Assembly (NCBI RefSeq): GCF_036785885.1
Contig: NC_092317.1
Coordinates: 5,396,501-5,460,500, forward strand
Direction: 5' to 3'
Length of the DNA: 64,000 nt
DNA from: Coffea arabica
Lineage: Eukaryota > Streptophyta > Magnoliopsida > Gentianales > Rubiaceae
In this document: piece after piece, positions 25,571 through 64,000 of the stretch
Numbering within the stretch: position 1 is the stretch's first letter
Layout: each line of letters begins with the position of its first letter
Program-made: the position numbers and the translations under genes
The notes under the pieces: model-generated
What the model was told of the DNA's origin: nothing
The model's database searches: none
What the model saw: only the letters and a program-made list of their open reading frames with translations

Positions 25571-26016
25571 AGTCAACTTTAGTTTATTCTGAAAGTTTAC
25601 GTGAATAAATTTTTTTTTTCAAACTCATTTTGCGAGATAACGTTGAAGGACAAATATTAGTGCAGCAGGTTCTGTAAGGTTTGAATTCAAAGTAATATGT
25701 TGCAACATAAAAAGTTCGAAATAATTTAAGTTACTTGAAGGCATTAATTAATGCTCTATGCCAAACGATGGCTCAATATAATAAAGTCATGATTTACTTT
25801 TACATAACCGACCGACTTGTGGAGAAATATGCTATTGCTAGCATAATGGTTGTGATGTCGTTTCAAGAATGTGAGCATTGTGCATGGCGGTTCGTTGCCA
25901 TTGGGTTAGTGTTTTGGCGATAACGTTTGAGCGATTTTTTTTTTACTTTCATTTATGTGTTCTTTTTTAAGATTTATTATTTAATGTCTCTACCTATATA
26001 AGAATTCTACGCTTTT
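25571..26016. other. Spacer between duplicated segments
   Basis: AT-rich, with no gene seen. The short frame 25735-25923 shows no recognised motif. Confidence 0.3.
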
Positions 26017-26406
26017 TGATTGAGTTCAAAATCAGTGGTTTTGAAATGAGAAATCTCAAAATCATAATGTATCCTAATTCGACTATTTCTAAGTCGAAAC
26101 ATCCGAATATTTGACTGAATTCTGACTTACTGATTTCAAATTTTTTTGATCAAGTTTGAAATCAGTGGTTTTGAAATGAGAAATCTCAAAATCGTAATGT
26201 ATTCTAATTCAACTATTTCTAAGTCGAAACATCCGAATATTTGACTGAATTCTGACTTACTGATTTCAAATTTTTTTGATCAAGTTTGAAATCAGTGGTT
26301 TTGAAATGAGAAATCTCAAAATCGTAATGTATTCTAATTCGACTATTTCTAAGTCGAAACATCTGAATATTTGACAGAATTCTGACTTACTGATTTCAAA
26401 TTTTTA
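26017..26406. repeat. Three tandem copies of a 130-bp unit with inverted ends
   Basis: The marker ATCAGTGGTTTTGAAATGAG occurs at 26031, 26161 and 26291, an exact 130-bp period. The copies are nearly identical; copies 2 and 3 differ at only a few sites. Each unit begins GAAATCAGT and ends ACTGATTTC, which are inverted repeats, and contains an internal dyad (TTGAAATGAG/AAATCTCAAAA). Each copy is therefore a small palindromic, MITE-like module in head-to-tail array. Confidence 0.85.
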
Positions 26407-47696: not shown

Positions 47697-49349
47697 ATGG
47701 CTCAACACTTCATTTCGGATGTGCAAAACATCAGACAATCATTCTCCTTATCTGATGTTGATCCAAACATGGAAATGATGAGTCAGTTTCCAGAGTTGAA
47801 TCCAGGAGCTTTAGATTCCTCAAACTTTACGAACGTGCAGCCTTCAATGGGATTTTCTTTCCATGAAAGTAATATCAGTCAACTCCTTGATCAGTTCCCC
47901 GGAAATTTAGCAGAAAACTTCCCTGGCATTTTCCCTAGCGATTTCAAGAACGTCCTCTCACTTCCTGATCCCATCTGTTCTTCTGCATATGATCATACCC
48001 TTCATGAAGGTAAGAAAAGGAAATTAACAGACACCCCGGAAAGTAGTTCAGCTAATTCATCTGCTCAAATCTCCGAAAATGGAAGCAGAACAAAAAATGT
48101 AAGGCTCTTAGGTCTCTCAATACTTCAATGAATCATCGTATTTCTTAACATTCTAGAATTCAATCTTTTTCATAGCCATTTATTTGAGGTAGAATTGACA
48201 TGTTTATATTGCCTTCAGTGTTCACAGATTACAGGAAAAGGAAAAAGGATAAGAAGCAATAGGAAGGATGAAGAGAAACCAAAAGAAGTGGTACATGTTA
48301 GAGCTAAAAGAGGCCAAGCTACCGATAGTCACAGTTTAGCAGAAAGGGTAAGTTTTCGAAATGTAATTTTGACCAAATTCCCCATTTTGGATAAGTCAGA
48401 GGTTCCTTTTCTTTTACCTTTTTCTGCCCTTTTCTTCAACAATGTCAATGTCTGCTAGAAGCTAGTGTCACTCGACTCATCATAGAGAATAACAATTTTG
48501 TATTATGAGTCCAACACATTTGTCGATTGATCAGGTCAGAAGAGGAAAAATCAATGAGAGGCTTAGGTGCTTGCAAGACATTGTTCCAGGCTGCCACAAG
48601 GTATATGTCTCTTTAATTGTATTATATTGCTCTATTTCTGATTTTAATTCAATTAATATGCTAAAAAAAAAGGTGCAGTATTAATTAAACCTACGGTGTA
48701 CGTCATTGAATTGCAGACAATGGGCATGGCAGTGATGTTGGATGAGATAATTAATTACGTGCAGTCCTTACAAAATCAAGTTGAAGTGAGTTGAAACAAA
48801 TTAATCAAGTATTACACAATTTTAGAAACAAAAAACAAAGCACTAACTAGTTTAATTAATTTGGTCGGTTTCAGTTTTTGTCCATGAAGCTTACAGCAGC
48901 AAGCAACTTCTACGACTTCAACAGAGAAACAGACACCATAGATACACTCCAGGTGCTTTGACTATTTGGAGAAATTTGAACTATCGCATTGCATAGCTCA
49001 TTAATTTTGCTTATTAATTAAAGCTTGCATGCTCCTTTTATACTTGCAAGAATATAAATATCTCAAATTCAAGTCCCATATCAATGTTGTTGGTAAACCC
49101 AAATATGTATTGATTCGTGCCACATTATATATGATTTAGTCCAAGTTATATAGTTAAAAGTACCAAATTTCAGTGCATTTCCTCGAGTGTCTAATGAGAA
49201 TGTTTTTTGTTTATCAGAGAGCAAAGGCATTTGAAGCAATGAAGATGCAAAAGCTAATGAAGGAGGACTTTGATGGGGTTCCTTCCACTCAACTTGGACC
49301 TCTTGACCAGACTTTTGGATGCTATCCTTCACTGCCATTCAACACATGA
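47697..49349 (+). CDS. BEE3: bHLH transcription factor, BEE1/BEE3-like (brassinosteroid-enhanced expression)
   Basis: Six exons: 47697-48098, 48228-48347, 48535-48600, 48717-48785, 48875-48952 and 49218-49349, joining in frame to 288 aa. The N-terminal half is Ser/Asn/Phe-rich. The bHLH block is [31 protein letters not shown] (about residues 157-187). His169, Glu173 and Arg177 are the E-box contact residues. It continues through DIVPGCHKTMGMAVMLDEI and NYVQSLQNQVEFLSMKL, diagnostic of the BEE/CIB/HBI group. BEE proteins are nuclear growth regulators induced by brassinosteroid and acting in elongation, flowering and shade responses. The exon 2 acceptor is ambiguous: two AGs nine bases apart (48218 and 48227) are both in frame, so CSQ may be inserted. 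Family canonical GCYK is GCHK here, probably neutral. BEE1 versus BEE3 orthology is not settled. Confidence 0.92.
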
Positions 49350-51002
49350 AGATGTTCCATGTTCCCTAATCAAATTTGTCCCACTTGTTATAGCAAATCC
49401 AAGAAAGGAGAAGAGAATTGCCCCCACTTGATTCTATTCAATTTTACACAAGCTGATATGAAAATTATACTTGCATGATCATGCCTCCTCACAAATGTAG
49501 CAAATTAACCAATAATTAATGAAGTGTACAATCTCATTTTTCTTATTCCTATGTTGCTTGATGACACTTGATTGGAATGATTTAAACATTGAAATGAGTG
49601 GTTGGTTCCCGACAAGTTGATAATGTGTATTACAATCTTGCCTTCCAATCCAATGAGTGATTAAACACCTAATGGCTTTAATCAGTGGTGGACTACAACA
49701 AGAAGTCAAGAAATGCTTACAATGTCTTCTCAACTCAAATGCCGACTGCATACCACCTAAACATGTTTTTGACTTTAAACTCCAATAATTTCCCATTAAG
49801 CATGAAATGGGCACAACTATTGAGCAATAGCGTTAAATGTTTTGTCATTTGGTTTTGGCCTTTATCAAAGATTAGTGGTGATCCTTTGCTTTCTGATTTT
49901 GATAGCAATGATTAGACTGATGTAATTGCTTCTTTGTCTTCGTCAAGGAATGCCATCACTTGTTGGATAGAAATATAATAATCGAGGGATTGTTGGTAAT
50001 ACAAGATAATAATGACTTGTATTTTGTCAGCATCACAGGTTATACATCACTAATTCTCTCAAATGCCTGTCAAAAATAATAAAGAAAGATGAGTAAAATA
50101 AAAACTGCAGTCATAGTTGTGGCTCTTTCGTTCTTCTTGAAGACGTGAGAATCATAGATCAATGTCACCAAAAAAAGAAAAAAAGAAGAAGATTTTTTAA
50201 TTTCCCATCGTTTGTGATTCAGAATTGTCAGTCTTGGCATACATTAAAGAGGTGAAAAAGAGGCCTCTTCTATAATTCATTTTCTTTTAAGGTTTACAGA
50301 GAGAAGCAGCCTTTAAATTCATGTCTTGAGGCATTATATGATATTATTTAGCTACTTCACCCGTTCTTGACAGATCTTATAAGTGTTATGATGTGATGTA
50401 TCTAATTAACTCTTTTCCTAAAAGCGAACCTAGTAAATCAAGCAGATACAATTTGTTTAATTAAGAGAATTAGAATATCATATACGATTTGCTTGTTTTG
50501 TCAAATTTTATAGAACTTACTATTTATTTTTTGTATTTTATTTTTTTTACAAGTCTTAAAATTTTATTATTCTATGTTTCCTTCCAAAATAAATTGTATT
50601 TTTTTCCTTTCAATTTGCCATCTTATGGGCAAAATAGTTCCAATTTCATAATGGTCCTTCTTTATTTTTTTTTTTTTTGGGTTAGCCGTAATGATCCTAT
50701 TTTGATTTGGTTTAGAATTTGGGAACCTGCTACTCTTTATAGTTAAAAAAAAAAAGAAAACAATAAGTCATTTTAGGAACATTGACAATATTATGTATCT
50801 TCTTTTAGACAAAGCGAGAGACAATAGCACAAAGTTAGCCACATTTTTGTTCTTATTTATAAGAAAAAGAATTATTAGATTTCTAAACATATGTAAAAAA
50901 AAAAAAAAAAAAGATAACTACACTTAAAAAGGAAAAGACAAAAGAAGGGATTGAATCTAAAGTAAAAATAACCGTGTCAAATTTTCACTATTTATGTTAG
51001 TT
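49350..51002. other. 3' flank of the bHLH gene and spacer
   Basis: Probable 3' UTR to about 49480, then AT-rich spacer with homopolymers. The frames on both strands at 49479-49915 are not supported. Confidence 0.4.
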
Positions 51003-55165: not shown

Positions 55166-56180
55166 AATCTAAGGTGGTGTTTGGTTCGCATGTTGGAATC
55201 GGATTCGGATTCGGATTTAGAATCATTCATTCTGGATTTGGAATGGAGTCAATCATTCCAATACATTTGTTTGGTTCAGTACCAGGAATGTATATCATTA
55301 CTATAGTCGATGTTTGGTTCGTTGGCTCTTTGTAAATGGGATATAACAAATTTTCACTCATTAAATATATTAGTATAAATGTATTAGTAAATTTAGTATA
55401 ACTAATTAATAATTTATATTTGTAAACATGTATAATCATTAGTATAATTGATAATATCAATTATATTATATAGATTAGTATACATTATATAATACATATA
55501 ACTAATAACATCATTATTATAAGTTTGTAACTAATTAAATTAAATAATTTATATATATAATTATACAAATGTTATAATATAAATATATAATTATAATTAT
55601 ATAATACATATAAAGATTAATTATACTAATATTTTATATAATTATAATGTATGTTATGTATTAAATATAATAATTATTATATATTATTATAATAAATAAA
55701 ATTATAATAATATAATTTATTAATATTATATACATGTATATATTATAATTATAATTATATGCACATATAATATATATTTATAAATATACATATATAATAT
55801 AAATATATTATTATATAATATTAATAAATTTATAATATATATTATATAAATATAATTATATTAAATTAAATAATTATAATACATATATTTATAATATATT
55901 ATTTAATTATACTAATATTATAATAAAATATATAATTATAATTATAATATACATTATATACATAATTATATATATGTATATAATTATATATTACTTTTTT
56001 TAATGGGTGGCGGGACGGGCCCATTTCTAAATGGAAATCAGACTTGGGTTTTGTCCAAAACCCTCCAAGTTACTAGGGAATTGAGGAATTCTAAATTTTT
56101 ACATATGATTCTAAAATCCCAATTCCGATATTAGTAATCCAAACAATAATTATGGGGTTTATTCCAATTCTCCATTCCGA
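55166..56180. mobile_element. AT-rich element with imperfect inverted ends
   Basis: The left part reads GGTGTTTGGTTCGCATG…GGAATCGGATTCGG, and the right part ends …TCCCAATTCCGATATTAG…CCATTCCGAAACC. This arrangement is typical of 'tttggttcgg…ccgaaccaaa' MITEs with GGAATC repeats. The centre (about 55360-55995) is over 600 bases of nearly pure A/T, full of short TATAAT/ATTATA palindromes. The exact borders and target duplication could not be fixed. Confidence 0.45.
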
Positions 56181-56248
56181 AACCCTCTTATCAAATGCCA
56201 CTGCACCGAAACCGGCTTTTCCCGTCAAACCATGTTTTGGAACCGGCC

Positions 56249-56596
56249 TCAAAACGGATGCATTCGTTGCAAAATATCATAATCCTGCATCACAAAGTTA
56301 TGCTGAAACCTCCACAATCCCCCAGACCTTTGCTTATCACGAATAACAGTTGGGTCTACCCCTAAATCCTTTTCTTGCATAAGAGAAAACACGGCACTCC
56401 AATCTTTCAAATGATTCTTAAATAGCGATTCTAAAAACATATTTATACTAATGAAATGCAAAGGTCTCTCCATCTTCAGATATTTTTTATAGAAATGATT
56501 TTCTAGGAATGGCAAGTGGTGCTTATGGAAGAAAGATGGCAAATCAGAGACACTCTCAGGTCTCAAGTTACCAGCATCCTTCGCGAAACTCTCCAA
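56249..56596 (-). pseudogene. Exon-like coding fragment (115 codons) of unit 1, unknown family
   Basis: The frame starts after a good acceptor (TTTAACCAG/AT at about 56604) and reads LESFAKDAGNLRPESVSDLP, then FFHKHHLPFLENHFYKKYLK and DWSAVFSLMQEKDLGVDP, ending RMHPF-stop. The composition is that of a real protein. The copy in unit 2 (59989-59642) differs at about three residues over 115. I do not recognise the family. With no complete gene around it, a captured or stranded internal/terminal exon is more likely than an active gene. Confidence 0.45.
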
Positions 56597-56848
56597 ATCT
56601 GGTTAAATTATAGGAATTATCGTCAATAATCAAAAAACATATAGAACTTGAAAAAAAAATCCGAGATAAAGATGGAATTGAAAAGCTACTTTATCTGTCT
56701 AAAACCAGATAAAGATAGAATTCTATGAAAAGGATAAATTCTTGTGCTACAAGTTAAGACAAGTTGGAAATATTTGAATAATTTGCTATTTGATTTGGTT
56801 TCCAATCAATTACTTGAGAAACATTAAATCGTATTCCTGATAAACAAA

Positions 56849-57315
56849 GGCCCTGTTTGGAACCACAGTTTTTTTTGCGAGTTTGTATGCTAATAGTGTG
56901 TCGCGCGACCAGATTGCAGTTAAGGGAGGGGGAGATAAAAAGCTAAAAAAAAAAATCCATGGCTACTTAATCTCTGGCGTCGGAGGGTGAGGGGGAGGGG
57001 AGAGAAGAGGGAGAGGGAGAGGGGGAAGAGGGGAAGAGAAAGGAAAAAAAAATTGCGGGTTGGCTGCTGGGTGACCAGATCGCAACTAGGGGGAGGGTGG
57101 CGGGAAAGGGGGAGGAGAGTGGGGTGAGAAAAAGCAAAAAAAAAAAAAAAAATCCATTGCTGCAAGTTCTTTGGCGTCGGAGGGCGACGGGAGGGGGAGA
57201 GGGAAAGGGAGAAGAGGGGCAGAGAAAAAGGGAAAAAGGGAAAAAAAATTGTCTTACAACTTCTACAGTAAAATTTTAGACAAACACCCAAAAAATTCAC
57301 CTTCCAAACGATGCC
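56849..57315. mobile_element. GGCCCTGTTTGGAA-ended MITE-like block, unit 1 (short form)
   Basis: It begins GGCCCTGTTTGGAACCACAG and ends with the inverse of GGCATCGTTTGGAAGG. The inside has two related segments (each with ATCCATKGCTGC/ATCCATGGCTAC, CTGGCGTCGGAGGG and a G/A-rich tract, then GGTGACCAGATCGCAACTAG). Equivalent blocks are at 60243-60689 (short) and 58073-58894 and 61447-62207 (long, starting GGCTCTGTTTGGAACATC); a fifth starts at 63538. Similar ends in all copies suggest a transposon, but no clean target duplication can be read. Confidence 0.5.
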
Positions 57316-57491
57316 AAAAATATAATAAATACTTGCTAAATATAAGTAAACTCGAAATAGGAAAAGGAAAATCGTCTGAAGTTACACAAACTCTACCGGT
57401 ACTGCTGAAAAGGAAGAAAAAGACATCTATTATGATACAAACTCCAATCACCAATATAATTGGAAAATCAACCAGAAAACACTTCACAAAT

Positions 57492-57642
57492 TAGGCTGCT
57501 TCCATTTCTGATACTCAGCATCAACTTTTAATTTCTCCGTAAAAGATCGGCTATTAATCACAGGCACCAAGCTCCTAGCTATACGGTTCTTGCAATTCAT
57601 GGTGTGGAGGATTAAGCATCCAGAGCTTAAGTTGTTCTGCAT
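57492..57642 (-). pseudogene. Exon-like fragment A (N-terminal, presequence-like), unit 1
   Basis: The minus frame reads MQNNLSSGCLILHTMNCKNR, then ARSLVPVINSRSFTEKLKVD and AEYQKWKQPNL followed by a stop. The start is rich in Arg, Ser and Leu, like a mitochondrial presequence. Further versions lie at 59249-59010, about 61012-60865 and 62544-62360; in the second and fourth the frame continues as LWS(T/A)FWLIFQL. It may be the first exon of the gene whose later exon is at 56249-56596. Confidence 0.4.
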
Positions 57643-58072
57643 TTCGAAAGTTGAGCTAACAGATCTTAAGTTGAGGGAAACACAAAACTCAACACTACAC
57701 TCTTAGGCTCTTACATTGTGAGTTTAAAGACCGTTCATGTTGTTTGATGACCGAGTAGAAATAGAGATCGGGTGAAATATGAGATGAATTTGAGCGATCA
57801 CCCTTTAAACCGTAATATTTGCTCTGTATTAATGGAGAAAAAAGATCATGCGTGGTTTGATAGATTCAATTTTTCGGTGGTAGACAGTCAGGTGAAAACC
57901 CTCGTTAAGAGCATATTTTCTCTTATTGGATCGACGCTGTCAAAATGGATGAGTCGGCGTTGATGTCAAAGTGTGCCTCTTTTTGAGGAGTCCAACCACC
58001 CAAATAATAAAAAAAAGAAAAAAGAAAAAGCGCCCACATTAACGTTCATTGCGCGTTGAGTCGTGGGATAAT

Positions 58073-58894
58073 GGCTCTGTTTGGAACATCGGTTTTTTTA
58101 CAAGTTTGTATGTTACGAGTTTTTTAACAACTTTAGCTATAGGAATCCCAAAATATTTATCGAAATTTTTAACCTACACACTTCAAAATATCTAATACAC
58201 AAAAACTTTCCTTCTTTTTCCTCCCGCACCCAATCTACCACGACCTTTGTCGTCAGCCACCACTTCCACCACCGCTCTTGGCGCCGATCACCTATTTCGG
58301 CACTAAAATCAGTGCCGGCCTTCCTCTTTTTTTTTTCTCTCCCTCTCCCTCATCCCCTATCCTCATCTCCTCCCCTCCCCTCTTCCTCTCTCTCTCCACC
58401 GCCATTTTCCCCTCCTACTAGCGGCGATCTGGTCACGCGACCAGATCGGGAAGGGGGAGGGGGGCTGCGATCCTGTCGGGGGAGGGCGGCGGGGGGAGGA
58501 GAGGAGAGGGAGGGAGAAAAAGTTTAAAAAAAATTCATGGCTGCTTAATCTCTGGCGTCGGAGGGCGATTGGGAGAGGTGAGGGAGAGGGAGAGGGAGAA
58601 GAGGGGAAGAGAAAGGAAAAAAAATTGCAACTTGGCTGCGGGGCGACCAAATCGCAACTAGGTGGAAGGTGGCGGGAAAGGGGGAAGAGAGTGGGGGGAG
58701 CAAAAAGGAAAAAAAATAAAATCCATTGCTGCAAGTTCTCTGGCGTCGGAGGGCGACGGGGAGGGGGTGGAGAGGGTGAGAGGGAGAGGGAAAGGGAGAA
58801 GAGGGGCAGAGAAAAAGGGAAAAAAAATTTTCTTACAACTTTTACAGTAAAATTTTAGACAAACACCCAAAAAATTCATATTTCAAACGGGGCC
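58073..58894. mobile_element. GGCTCTGTTTGGAA-ended MITE-like block, unit 1 (long form)
   Basis: The right end is the inverse of GGCCCCGTTTGAAA. It contains a pyrimidine-rich half (about 58320-58410, CTCTCCCTCT) opposite purine-rich halves (58440-58620 and 58680-58820), giving strand-switching polypurine/polypyrimidine tracts. The long frames through it are pure Arg/Glu/Gly/Lys or Pro/Ser/Leu translations of these tracts and are not proteins. Confidence 0.5.
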
Positions 58895-59009
58895 AAAAAT
58901 ATAATAAATACTTGCTAAATATAAGTAAAACTCGAAATAGGAAAAGGAAAACCATCTAAAGTCACACAAACTCTACCGCTACTGCTGAAAAAGGAGAAAA
59001 AGACACCTA

Positions 59010-59249
59010 TTATGATACAAAGTCCAACCACCAATATAATTGGAAAATCAACCAGAAAGTACTCCACAAATTAGGCTGCTTCCATTTCTGATACTCAGCA
59101 TCAGCTTCTAAATTCTCCCTAAAAGACCGGTTATTAATCACAGGAACCAATCTCTTAGGTATACAGTTCTTGCAATTCCTGGTGTGGAGGATTAAGCGTC
59201 CAGAGCTTAAGTTGTTCTGCATTTCGAAAGTTGAGCTAACAGATCTCAA
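59010..59249 (-). pseudogene. Exon-like fragment A, second copy in unit 1
   Basis: The frame reads MRSVSSTFEMQNNLSSGRLI, then RLVPVINNRSFRENLEADAE and YQKWKQPNLWSTFWLIFQ. It is diverged from the 57.5-kb copy (for example CIPKRL in place of RIARSL), showing that the half-unit duplication is older than the whole-unit duplication. Confidence 0.4.
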
Positions 59250-59623
59250 ACTGAGGGAAACACAAAACTCTAAACTACACTCTTACGCTCTTACATTGTG
59301 AGTTTAGAGACCGTTTAAGTTGTTTGATGACCGAGTAGAAATGGAGATCGGGTGAAATATGAGAGGAATTTGAGCGATCACCATGTAAACCGTCACATTT
59401 CCTCTGTACTAATGGAGAAAAAAGATCATGCGTGGTTTGATAGATTCAATTTTCGGTGGTAGACAGTCAGGTGAAAACCCTAGTTAAGAGCATATTTTCT
59501 CTTATTGGATCGACGCTGTCAAAAATTGATGAGTCGGCGTTGACGTCAAATTGGGCTCCTTTCTGCGGAGCCCAACCACCCAAATAATTAAAAAAAAGGA
59601 AAAAGAAAAAGCGCCTGTCCAAC

Positions 59624-62600
59624 CATGTTTTGGAACCGGCCTCAAAACGGATGCATTCGTTGCAAAATATCATAATCCCGAATCACAAAGTTATGCTGAA
59701 ACCTCCACAATCCCCCATACCTTTGCTTATCACGAATAACAGTTGGGTCTACCCCTAAATCCTTTTCTTGCATAAGAGAAAACACGGCACTCCAATCTTT
59801 CAAATGATTCTTAAATAGCGATTCTAAAAACATATTTATGCTAATGAAATGCAAAGGTCTCTCCATCTTCAGATATTTTTTATAGAAATGATTTTCTAGG
59901 AATGGCAAGTGGTGCTTATGGAAGAAAGATGGCAAATCAGAGACACTCTCAGGTCTCAAGTTACCAGCATCCTTCGCGAAACTCTCCAAATCTGGTTAAA
60001 TTATAGGAATTATCGTCAATAATCAAAAAACATATAGAACTGGAAAAAAAATCCGAGATAAAGATGGAATTGAAGAGCTACTTTATCGGTCTAAAACCAG
60101 ATAAAGATAGAATTCTACGAAAAGGATAAATTCTTGTGCTACAAGTTAAGACAAGTTGGAAATATTTGAATAATTTGCTATTTGATTTGGTTTCCAATCA
60201 ATTACTTGAGAAACATTAAATCGTATATTCCTGATAAACAAAGGTCCTGTTTGGAACCACAGTTTTTTTTGCGAGTTTGTATGCTAATAGTGTGTCGCGC
60301 GACCAGATTGCAGTTAAGGGAGGGGGAGATAAAAAGCTAAAAAAAAAAATCCATGGCTACTTAATCTCTGGCGTCGGAGGGTGAGGGGGAGGGGAGAGAA
60401 GAGGGAGAGGGAGAGGGGGAAGAGGGGAAGAGAAAGGAAAAAAAAATTGCGGGTTGGCTGCTGGGTGACCAGATCGCAACTAGGGGGAGGAGAGTGGGGT
60501 GAGAAAAAGCAAAAAAAAAAAAAAAATCCATTGCTGCAAGTTCTTTGGCGTCGGAGGGCGACGGGAGGGGGAGAGGGAGAGGGAGAAGAGGGGCAGAGAA
60601 AAAGGGAAAAAGGGAAAAAAAATTGTATTACAACTTTTACAGTAAAATTTTAGACAAACACCCAAAAAACTCACCTTCCAAACGATGCCAAAAATATAAT
60701 AAATACTTGCTAAATATAAGTAAACTCGAAATAGGAAAAGGAAAACCGTCTGAAGTTACACAAACTCTACCGGTACTGCTGAAAAAGAAGAAAAAGACAT
60801 CTATTATTATACAAACTCCAATCACCAATATAATTGGAAAATCAACCAGAAAACACTTCACAAATTAGGCTGCTTCCATTTCTGATACTCAGCATCAACT
60901 TCTAATTTTTCCGTAAAAGACCAGCTATTAATCACAGACACCAAGCTCCTAGCTATACGGTTCTTGCAATTCATGGTGTGGAGGATTAAGCATCCAGAGC
61001 TTAAGTTGTTCTGCATTTCGAAAGTTGAGCTAACAGATCTTAAGTTGAGGGAAACACAAAACTCAACACTACACTCTTAGGCTCTTACATTGTGAGTTTA
61101 AAGACCGTTCATGTTGTTTGATGACCGAGTAGAAATAGAGATCGGGTGAAATATGAGATGAATTTGAGCGATCACCCTTTAAACCGTAATATTTGCTCTG
61201 TATTAATGGAGAAAAAAGATCATGCGTGGTTTGATAGATTCAATTTTTCGGTGGTAGACAGTCAGGTGAAAACCCTCGTTAAGAGCATATTTTCTTTTAT
61301 TGGATCGACGCTGTCAAAATGGATGAGTCGGCGTTGATGACAAAGTGTGCCTCTTTCTGAGGAGCCCAACCACCCAAATAATAAAAAAAAGAAAAAAGAA
61401 AAAGCGCCCACATTAACGTTCATTGCGCGTTGAGTCGTGGGATAATGGCTCTGTTTGGAACATCAGTTTTTTTACAAGTTTGTATGTTACGAGTTTTTTA
61501 ACAACTTTTGTTATAGGAATCCCAAAATATTTATCGAAATTTTTAACCTACACACTTCAAAATATCTAATACACAAAAACTTTCCTTCTTTTTCCTCCCG
61601 CACCCAACCTACCACGACCTTTGTCGTCGGCCACCACTTCCACCACCGCTCTCGGCGCCGGTCACCTATTCCGGCACTAAAATCAGTGCCGGCCTTCCTC
61701 TTTTTTTTTTCTCTCCCTCTCTCTCATCCCCTATCCTCATCTCCTCCCCTCCCCTCTTCCTCTCTCTCTCCACCGCCATTTCCCCCTACTAATAGCGGCG
61801 ATCTGGTCACGCGACCAGATCGGGAAGGGGGAGGGGGGCTGCGATCCTGTCGGGAGAGGGTGGTGGGGGGAGGGGAGGGGAGGAGAGGGAGAGGGAGAGA
61901 GGAGGAGGGAGAAGAGAGGAAGAGAAAGGAAAAAAAATTGCAAGTTAGCTGCTGGGAGACCAGATCGCAACTAGGTGGAGAGTGGCGGGAAAGGGGGAGG
62001 AGAGTGGGGAGAGAAAAAGCAAAAAAAAAAAAAATCCTTTGCTGCGAGTTCTTTAGTGTCAGAGGGCGACGGGGAGGGGGAGGAGAGGGAGAGAGGGAGA
62101 GGGAAAGGGAGAAGAGGGGCAGAGAAAAAGGGAAAAAAATTTTTCTTATAAATTCTACAGTAAAATTTTAGACAAACACCAAAAAAATTTACATTCCGAA
62201 CGAGGTCAAAAATATAATAAATTCTTGCTAAATATAAGTAAAACTCGAAATAGGAAAAGGAAAACCGTTTAAAGTTACACAAACTCTACCGCTACTGCTG
62301 AAAAGGAGAAAATGACACCTATCCACCAACATAATTGGAAAATCAACCAGAAAGCACTCCACAAATTTGGCTGCTTCCATTTCTGATACTCAGCATCAGC
62401 TTTTAATTTCTCCCTAAAAGACCGACTATTAGTCACAGGAACCAATCTCTTAGGTATACAGTTCTTGCAATTCCCGGTGTGGAGGATTAAGCGTCCAGAG
62501 CTTAAGATGTTCTGCATTTCGAAAGTTGAGCTAACTGATCTCAAGTTGAGGGAAACAGAAAACTCTACACTACACTCTTAGGCTCTTACATTGTGAGTTT

Positions 62601-62920
62601 AGAGACCGTTTAAGTTGTTTGATGACCGAGTAGAAATGGAGATCGGGTGAAATATGAGAGGAATTTGAGCGATCACCATGTAAACCGTCACATTTCCTCT
62701 GTACTAATGGAGAAAAAAGATCATGCGTGGTTTGATAGATTCAATTTTTCGGTGGTAGACAGTCAGGTGAAAACCCTCGTTAAGAGCATATTTTCTCTTA
62801 TTGGATCGACGCTGTCAAAAATGGATGAGTCGGCGTTGATGTCAAATTGGGCTCCTTTCTGCGGAGCCCAACCACCTAAATAATAAAAAAAAAAGAAAAA
62901 AGAAAAAGCGCCCGTCAAAC
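59624..62920. repeat. Tandem array, unit 2 (3297 bp)
   Basis: Same order as unit 1: 115-codon frame (59989-59642), MITE-like block (60243-60689), frame A (about 61012-60865), long MITE-like block (61447-62207) and diverged frame A copy (62544-62360). The first 1.7 kb is nearly identical to unit 1, with only scattered substitutions and one deletion of about 20 bases at 60488, so the duplication is recent. Confidence 0.85.
59642..59989 (-). pseudogene. Exon-like coding fragment (115 codons) of unit 2
   Basis: Near-identical copy of 56249-56596. The visible differences are RSGG to RYGG and VMQD to VIRD, and the frame remains open. The same acceptor context precedes it. Confidence 0.45.
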
Positions 62921-64000
62921 CATGTTTTGTAACCGGCCTCAAAACAGATGCATTCGTTGCAACATATCATAATCCCGAATCACAAAGTTATGCTGAAACT
63001 TTCACAATCCCCCAGACCTTTGCTTATCGCGAATAACAGTTGGGTCTACCTCAAAATCCTTTTCTTCCAAAAGAGAAAACACGGCACTCCAATCTTTCAA
63101 ATGATTCTTAAATAGCTATTCTAAAAACATATTTATGCTAGCGAAATGCAAAGGTCTCTCCATCTTCAGATATATTTTATAGAAATGATTTTCTAGGAAT
63201 GGCAAGTGGTGCTTATGGAAGAAAAATGGCAAATCAGATACACTTTCAGGTCTCAAGTTACCAGTATCCTTCGCGAAACTCTCCAAATCTGGTTAAATTA
63301 TAGGAATTATCGTCACTAATCGAAAAACATATAGAACTGGAAAAAAAATCTGAGATAAAAATGGAATTGAAAAGCTACTTTATCTGTCTAAAACCAGATA
63401 AAGATAGAATTCTATGAAAAGGATAAATTGTTGTTCTACAAGTCAAGACAAGTTGGAAATATTTGAATAATTTGCTATTTGATTTGGTTTCCAATCAATT
63501 ACTTGAGAAACATTAAATCGTATTCCTGATAAACAAAGGCCCTGTTTGGAACCTCAGTTTTTTTTTTGCGAGTTTGTATGCTAATAGTTTGTCGCGTGAC
63601 CATATTGTAACTAGGGAAGGGGAAGGGTGGCAGGGGAGTGGAGAAGAGGGGGAGAGAAAAAGCTAAAGAAAAAAAAATCCATGGCTGCTTAATCTCTGAC
63701 GTCGGAGGGTGAGGGGGAGGGGAGGGGAGAGGGAGAAGAGGGGAAGAGAAAGGAAAAAAATATTGCAAGTTGACTGCTGGGCGACCAAATCGCAACTAGG
63801 GGGAGGGTGGCGGGAAAGGGAAGGAGAGTGGGGAGAGAAAAAGCAAAAAAAAAAAAAATCCATTGCTGTAAGTTCTCTGGCATCGGAGGGCGACGGGGAG
63901 GAGGAGGAGAGGGAGAGGGAGAAGGAGAAGAGGGGCAGAGAAAAAGGGAAAAAAAAAAATTTTCTTACAACTTCTACAATAAAATTTTAAACAAACACCC
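62921..64000. repeat. Tandem array, unit 3 (partial, runs off the window)
   Basis: It begins with the same marker (CATGTTTTGTAACCGGCCTC) and repeats the exon-like frame in more diverged form. It then enters a MITE-like block at 63538. The frame is broken here (for example a stop within the stretch corresponding to 63115-63125), so this copy is older or decaying. Confidence 0.8.

Follow-up and report, generated by a model that had tools for sequence, protein, structure and literature searches.

A window of 64,000 nucleotides of Coffea arabica DNA (C8:5396501–5460500, from an assembly of 1,197,963,845 bases in 131 contigs) ends in a head-to-tail array of repeated units in which open, exon-like protein frames alternate with polypurine blocks bearing transposon-like ends. 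The question raised by this locus is whether a transposon captured parts of a host gene and then multiplied, or whether a host gene is decaying where it has always stood. The array is very probably a tandemly duplicated pseudogene fragment, made from the already broken 5' part of a host gene. This reading is based on what was observed in spliced retrocopies, at the homeologous locus, in the lesions that the copies share, and in flank patterns and junction sequences; from these we infer the order of events.

The window stops inside the third unit, and by reading of the downstream contig the array was found to end about 2.3 kb beyond the window. It comprises three units in total (U1 to U3, 56221–66262; coordinates past 64000 are given in extended window numbering), each consisting of two related half-units. 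The original prediction had described units of about 3.3–3.4 kb built in this way, as was found (3393, 3297 and 3352 bp). Its count of at least 2.3 units continuing past the window was right as to the continuation, and can now be replaced by an exact number. Six copies of an exon-like fragment A, three regions with a 117-amino-acid frame (the frame of about 115 codons noted previously) and seven element blocks are present in the array. Overall identity is well past chance, at 96.4% for U1/U2, 91.4% for U1/U3 and 91.3% for U2/U3, and U3 is thus the diverged unit, as previously remarked.

The nature of the two coding fragments was established from copies elsewhere in the assembly. In three of three retrocopies (C8:42.94 Mb; C7:45.44 and 45.46 Mb), fragment A, ending CAGAAAT, is joined exactly to the 117-amino-acid frame, starting ATTTGG, with no intervening sequence; fragment A and the frame that follows it, both read on the minus strand, are therefore exon 1 and the beginning of exon 2 of one host gene. 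The retrocopy on C8 (L012) has also lost introns further downstream, which can be recognised by their GT...AG borders in the copy at C7:5.67 Mb (L015); it carries a 43-nt exon, and its joins between exons 2, 3 and 4 could be aligned. The frames of both C7 retrocopies (L013 and L014) finish in the same spliced sequence. Since the introns are precisely gone, all three are retrocopies of a spliced transcript, and no clear poly(A) tail was seen in L012 directly after the exon-4 match. In the two copies checked, exon 2 runs on into the Pfam domain RVT_3 (E = 2.1e-14 in L012 and 2e-13 in L015). The parent gene is thus a multi-exon gene in which exon 2 encodes both an N-terminal part of its own and the RNase H-like RVT_3 domain; exon 1 precedes it, and exon 3 (43 nt) and exon 4 follow. 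The claim that the array combines host-gene exon fragments with transposon blocks accordingly holds, with exon borders fixed by the retrocopies and the homeolog.

Other attempts to annotate the protein added little. With Pfam, the 117-amino-acid frame and the first exon-1 frame alone gave no match, and the second exon-1 frame gave a single, unconvincing match (E = 0.019) under its curated cut-off. Sequence searches of the PDB returned two chains for the 117-amino-acid frame (E = 0.24 and 1.3), which were rejected, and for the RNase H part a best E of 0.017 to SmG chains, which was judged to be chance. NCBIfam matches to RNase HI models fell far below their cut-offs (best E = 8.8e-07). A structure predicted for the C7 exon-2 frame from the single sequence was of poor quality (mean predicted local distance difference test score 52.7) and was given no weight.

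Within the assembly, exon 1 has 11 matches (11 of 11 candidates scored): six in the array, one homeolog in two pieces and the three retrocopies. A young satellite, the other origin that had been suggested, does not fit an array of three units whose exon 1 occurs elsewhere only in the homeolog and three retrocopies. The exon-2 frame gave 12 rows (16 of 16 candidates scored), namely three array copies, an inverted copy discussed below, the homeolog, three retrocopies (one split in two rows) and three distant paralogues at 33–37% identity. One of these paralogues of the exon-2 N-terminal region, at C7:7571380–7571787 (L049, 181–588) and read in part, is open over 135 amino acids; of the others, that at C8:7132055 has one stop and that at C15:44948988 is broken. 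The RNase H part has at least 56 matches among the best 150 of 1829 candidates, a scope in which distant relatives may escape; the first seven rows are the gene's own family and the remaining 49 are at 44% identity or less.

The array copies have lesions in common. The splice donor reads GG in all six array copies of exon 1, where the homeolog has GTAAGC; the acceptor AG is kept. All three array copies of exon 2 carry a 1-bp deletion that none of the five further aligned copies shows, whether the three retrocopies, the homeolog or the inverted copy. It is this deletion that ends the frame at about 115 codons. A dead donor in every exon-1 copy and a deletion in every exon-2 copy indicate that the fragment was already broken before it was amplified. 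The array thus has both an identifiable parent gene with exon structure and disabling lesions common to its copies, as expected of a pseudogene array. It could be argued from the exon-like borders, and from the 117-amino-acid frames that do stay open on the minus strand in two units, U1 and U2, as originally reported, that this is a living tandem gene cluster with a transposon in its intron. That is most improbable given six lost donors out of six, three frameshifted exon 2 copies out of three, stop codons inside U3 and a search of the assembly with the RNase H part that gave no match in any array unit among the best 150 of 1829 candidates. A functional gene family carrying the blocks in its normal introns had been named as an outcome that would overturn the original prediction: one block does occupy a normal intron, but all orthologous copies found are broken.

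No intact orthologous copy was found in the assembly. In the homeolog, exons 1 and 2 each contain a stop codon, exon 2 is truncated and an insert of 1.1 kb is present. Two retrocopies, those at C8:42.94 and C7:45.44 Mb, have a TAG in common, and the third has deletions and several stops. From the inverted copy the beginning of exon 2 is missing, as is most of the RNase H part. The retrocopy loci (L013, L025, L014 and L026 at C7:45438000–45477999; L012 and L029 at C8:42934300–42954299) sit in a larger, complex tandem repeat on both homeologous chromosomes, with many blocks of 1–8 kb at 95–99% identity and a spacing of about 8 to 20 kb.

The polypurine blocks are elements that lie in intron 1 and upstream of exon 1. 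Each unit has one intronic element (i) and one junction element (c), and a third kind, t, stands at the upstream end of the array. The blocks span 447–892 bp, start with GGCYCTGTTTGG or a variant and end with CAAACGGGGCC, CCAAACGATGCC or a variant, the left terminus of t being eroded; the terminal inverted repeats of c1, for example, read GGCTCTGTTTGG ... TTTCAAACGGGGCC. Related sequence is dispersed on many contigs, with at least 84 matches among the best 40 of 1425 candidates. Like miniature inverted-repeat transposable elements (MITEs), the blocks are short, end in terminal inverted repeats and have many relatives across the genome. In the homeolog the intron is element-free, with ATATTTTTGTTTATC at this site; in the array the element is flanked by ATATTTTT and TTTGTTTATC, a duplication of TTT. 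Element t is likewise absent from the 5' flank of the homeolog. In eight further copies fetched, a terminal repeat pair was recognised in three and none was recognisable in five; target sites showed a clean 3-bp duplication of GCA at one locus (L044), one mismatch at a second (L040) and no duplication at a third (L043).

PIF/Harbinger (Tourist-like) MITEs have short terminal inverted repeats, a non-coding body and a 3-bp target duplication, canonically TWA. By these general traits the array elements are probably MITE-like elements of the PIF/Harbinger type: they too have short terminal repeats, a body read as non-coding (coding capacity was not searched by homology) and 3-bp duplications at some sites. 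They differ in that the duplications are not the canonical TWA and are not seen at every site. Assignment to hAT was dropped, as no 8-bp duplication was seen.

Within each unit, gene pieces stand between element termini (GGCYCTGTTTGG), in keeping with a Pack-type transposon that captured parts of a host gene before tandem amplification. Such a capture is very unlikely here. The gene pieces lie at their own syntenic gene locus rather than within element termini at an unrelated site, and it is the elements that interrupt the intron and the upstream region, the homeolog showing both sites element-free. Exon 1 is not dispersed along with the element family, and the junction between units falls outside the elements, in exon 2 and upstream sequence.

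The element flanks bear on how the half-units of the pseudogene fragment arose. Every junction element (c1 to c3) has the left flank of t (GGGATAAT or GGGATAGTA) and the right flank of i (AAAAATATAATA), which is the pattern expected from unequal recombination between t and i with duplication of the exon 1 between them. Internally, c1 and t are 81–90% identical in alignment columns up to 300, a stretch that i mostly lacks, and in columns 800–900 the c elements are 69–70% identical to t and 96–98% to i. The recombination step would nevertheless stand mainly on the flanks.

The junction between units reads GCGCCC followed by GTCAAACC, with CCC common to both parent sequences, and the breakpoint is identical at both unit junctions. 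Between U1 and U2, 34 of 2119 sites differ from 56231 to 58370 and 52 of 463 in the remainder of the polypurine block. The second half-unit, with 32 differences in 701 sites, departs from the first 2.1 kb at p = 3e-5 (Fisher test). The near-identity of these units had been noted over 1.7 kb; it is real and extends over about 2.1 kb. Its change inside the polypurine block suggests later gene conversion or crossing-over there, and growth of the array by unequal recombination, as proposed at the outset, is supported. Tandem repeats of 3.3 kb are a known assembly risk; collapse or expansion of units by the assembler is nonetheless very unlikely, if marginally less so than gene capture, given units that differ by 3.6–8.7% overall and have indels of their own. 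In addition, a published Coffea arabica assembly of matching size (1,198 Mb, 132 scaffolds, 22 pseudochromosomes) was built from HiFi reads (PMC11018527).

Comparison with the homeologous chromosome C7 places the fragment in its genomic setting (matches of at least 200 bp for C8 against C7 and of at least 600 bp in other comparisons; in the all-against-all comparison, rows of more than 100 bp). The same gene is found on C7 at the syntenic place, where the array is absent. On either side of the array the two chromosomes are collinear, most of the blocks that reach 2 kb being about 90–96% identical, and the array-bearing segment of C8 is inverted relative to C7. Exon 2, on the minus strand in U1, recurs on the plus strand at 70311–70684, 14 kb away and 91–96% alike. 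Likewise, C7 segment 49319–49657 has copies at both ends of the inverted C8 segment, in opposite orientations. The C7 segment compared has one copy each of exon 2 and 49319–49657, and inverted duplications therefore occur at both breakpoints in the inverted arrangement only, as a staggered-break inversion would leave them. These alignments point to an inversion that broke the gene within exon 2.

In Drosophila, staggered breaks are described as giving inversions whose two ends carry inverted duplications (PMC5080602). The C8 segment resembles them in its duplicated ends and differs in being a small plant inversion with further duplication inside.

A dispersed AT-rich element adjoins the broken exon 2 of U1 at its right end. 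Three other copies, 83–86% like that in the window, were fetched: one has TAA at both ends, one TTA at both ends (one base ambiguous), and in the third no such repeat is clear. In the window the element has TAA at the left only, and CAC is shared at the join. Its right flank seems to have been replaced, and the left inversion breakpoint would lie at its end.

The inverted arrangement of exon 2, minus in the array and plus 14 kb away, also invites the view that a transcribed inverted repeat gives rise to small RNAs directed at the gene family. Its arms stand far from each other and are 91–96% alike, and the assembly yielded no intact orthologous target, which makes such a role very doubtful. 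A related candidate is that the array is transcribed and its small RNAs would act on distant RNase H-like family members, inversion and amplification having made a regulator of the broken gene; this too must be considered a long shot, if a slightly shorter one.

Taken in sequence, the pseudogene fragment would have arisen as follows. An inversion on the array's subgenome would have cut the gene inside exon 2 and duplicated about 0.3–0.4 kb at each breakpoint, leaving exon 1, intron 1 and the 5' part of exon 2 stranded on the minus strand. The fragment would then have lost its splice donor and one exon-2 base, losses that are only provisionally placed before the duplication of exon 1. Unequal recombination between the related MITE-like elements in intron 1 and upstream of exon 1 would have duplicated exon 1 to give the half-unit. 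End-joining at the 3-bp CCC microhomology may have linked upstream sequence to mid-exon 2 to form the 3.3-kb tandem unit, from which unequal crossing-over or gene conversion would have produced three units. Later, about 2.1 kb may have been homogenised between U1 and U2, in a tract ending in the polypurine block. This account assigns the array no function.

Several observations weigh against this account. At their right ends, c1 and c3 have the GGGGCC of t and i1 to i3 have GATGCC, so that the recombination step fits only if i changed afterwards. The polypurine middle of the junction elements does not separate t-like from i-like sequence, and at the C7 site for t the two flanks are simply joined, with no target duplication proven. 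The frames of U1 and U2 remain open, but their differences are too few to count as evidence of selection. Small matches at 82–86% suggest an older tandem gene copy upstream, which complicates the inversion. Finally, the C7 locus is itself rearranged, with a tandemly duplicated 3' part, an exon 2 without about 110 bases at its start and, in the exon-1 region, an insert of 1.1 kb, so that the ancestral order is inferred and not observed.

The insert at the C7 locus (L015 253–1352; C7:5672252–5673351) has inverted ends (GGGATAATTTCAGA...) and a repeated flank (TAAGAGAAA), which suggests a DNA transposon with a 9-bp duplication. The tandemly duplicated 3' part of the homeologous gene lies at L015 3685–7302, with a spacing of about 2.0–2.1 kb.

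The array had been singled out as the structure in the window that fits known feature types least well. It is instead the product of known processes, ordinary if well-preserved genome decay and no new kind of transposon. Tandem (non-processed) pseudogene arrays are a known kind in plants; here too, partial gene copies lie head to tail with common disabling mutations, and the coffee unit differs in its two-step build, a MITE-bounded half-unit followed by an upstream-to-mid-exon junction. Among the top-ranked literature on coffee MITEs, pseudogenes and RVT_3, no paper title concerned this locus. Repeat arrays seeded by transposable elements through non-allelic recombination, with an element-to-element start, are treated in a review (PMC9659126); element-to-element recombination is likewise the probable start of the coffee array, which differs in being largely gene-derived and having three copies only. 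Nothing is changed in what is known about any system. The locus is of value because the early history of a plant tandem array can be read from it, most steps being ordered by the homeolog, retrocopies and common lesions, and it illustrates how open exon-like frames and transposon ends can mimic gene capture while a gene decays in place.

Table 1. Positions of the array units, gene fragments and elements (window numbering, extended past 64000).
Feature	Position	Strand	Remarks
Array unit U1	56221..59613	-	3393 bp
Array unit U2	59614..62910	-	3297 bp
Array unit U3	62911..66262 (C8:5462762); window holds 62911..64000	-	3352 bp
Exon 2 5' part, U1	56199..56598	-	117-aa open frame; acceptor AG 56600-56599; left end, putative inversion breakpoint
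Exon 2 5' part, U2	59617..59991	-	117-aa open frame; cut off at unit junction
Exon 2 5' part, U3	62914..63288	-	stop codons inside
Exon 1 copy A1	57504..57799	-	donor GG for GT; 5' limit is start of retrocopy match
Exon 1 copy A2	59084..59379	-	donor GG
Exon 1 copy A3	60878..61173	-	donor GG
Exon 1 copy A4	62379..62674	-	donor GG
Intron-1 MITE-like element i1	56849..57315	.	GGCCCTGTTTGG ... CCAAACGATGCC; absent from homeolog intron
Intron-1 element i2	60243..60689	.	–
Intron-1 element i3	63538..64026; window holds 63538..64000	.	–
Junction element c1	58073..58894	.	left flank as in upstream element t, right flank as in intronic i
Junction element c2	61447..62207	.	flanks as in c1
Dispersed AT-rich element	55173..56200 (about)	+	terminus GGTGGYGTTTGG; right end adjoins broken exon 2

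Two further repeats were noted in passing. At 26013–26405 of the window, a 130-bp unit is repeated three times with a 96% match. Beyond the array, a 6.4-kb block of C8 (77710–84076) is 98.4% identical between the homeologs, its neighbouring blocks being at 82–94%.

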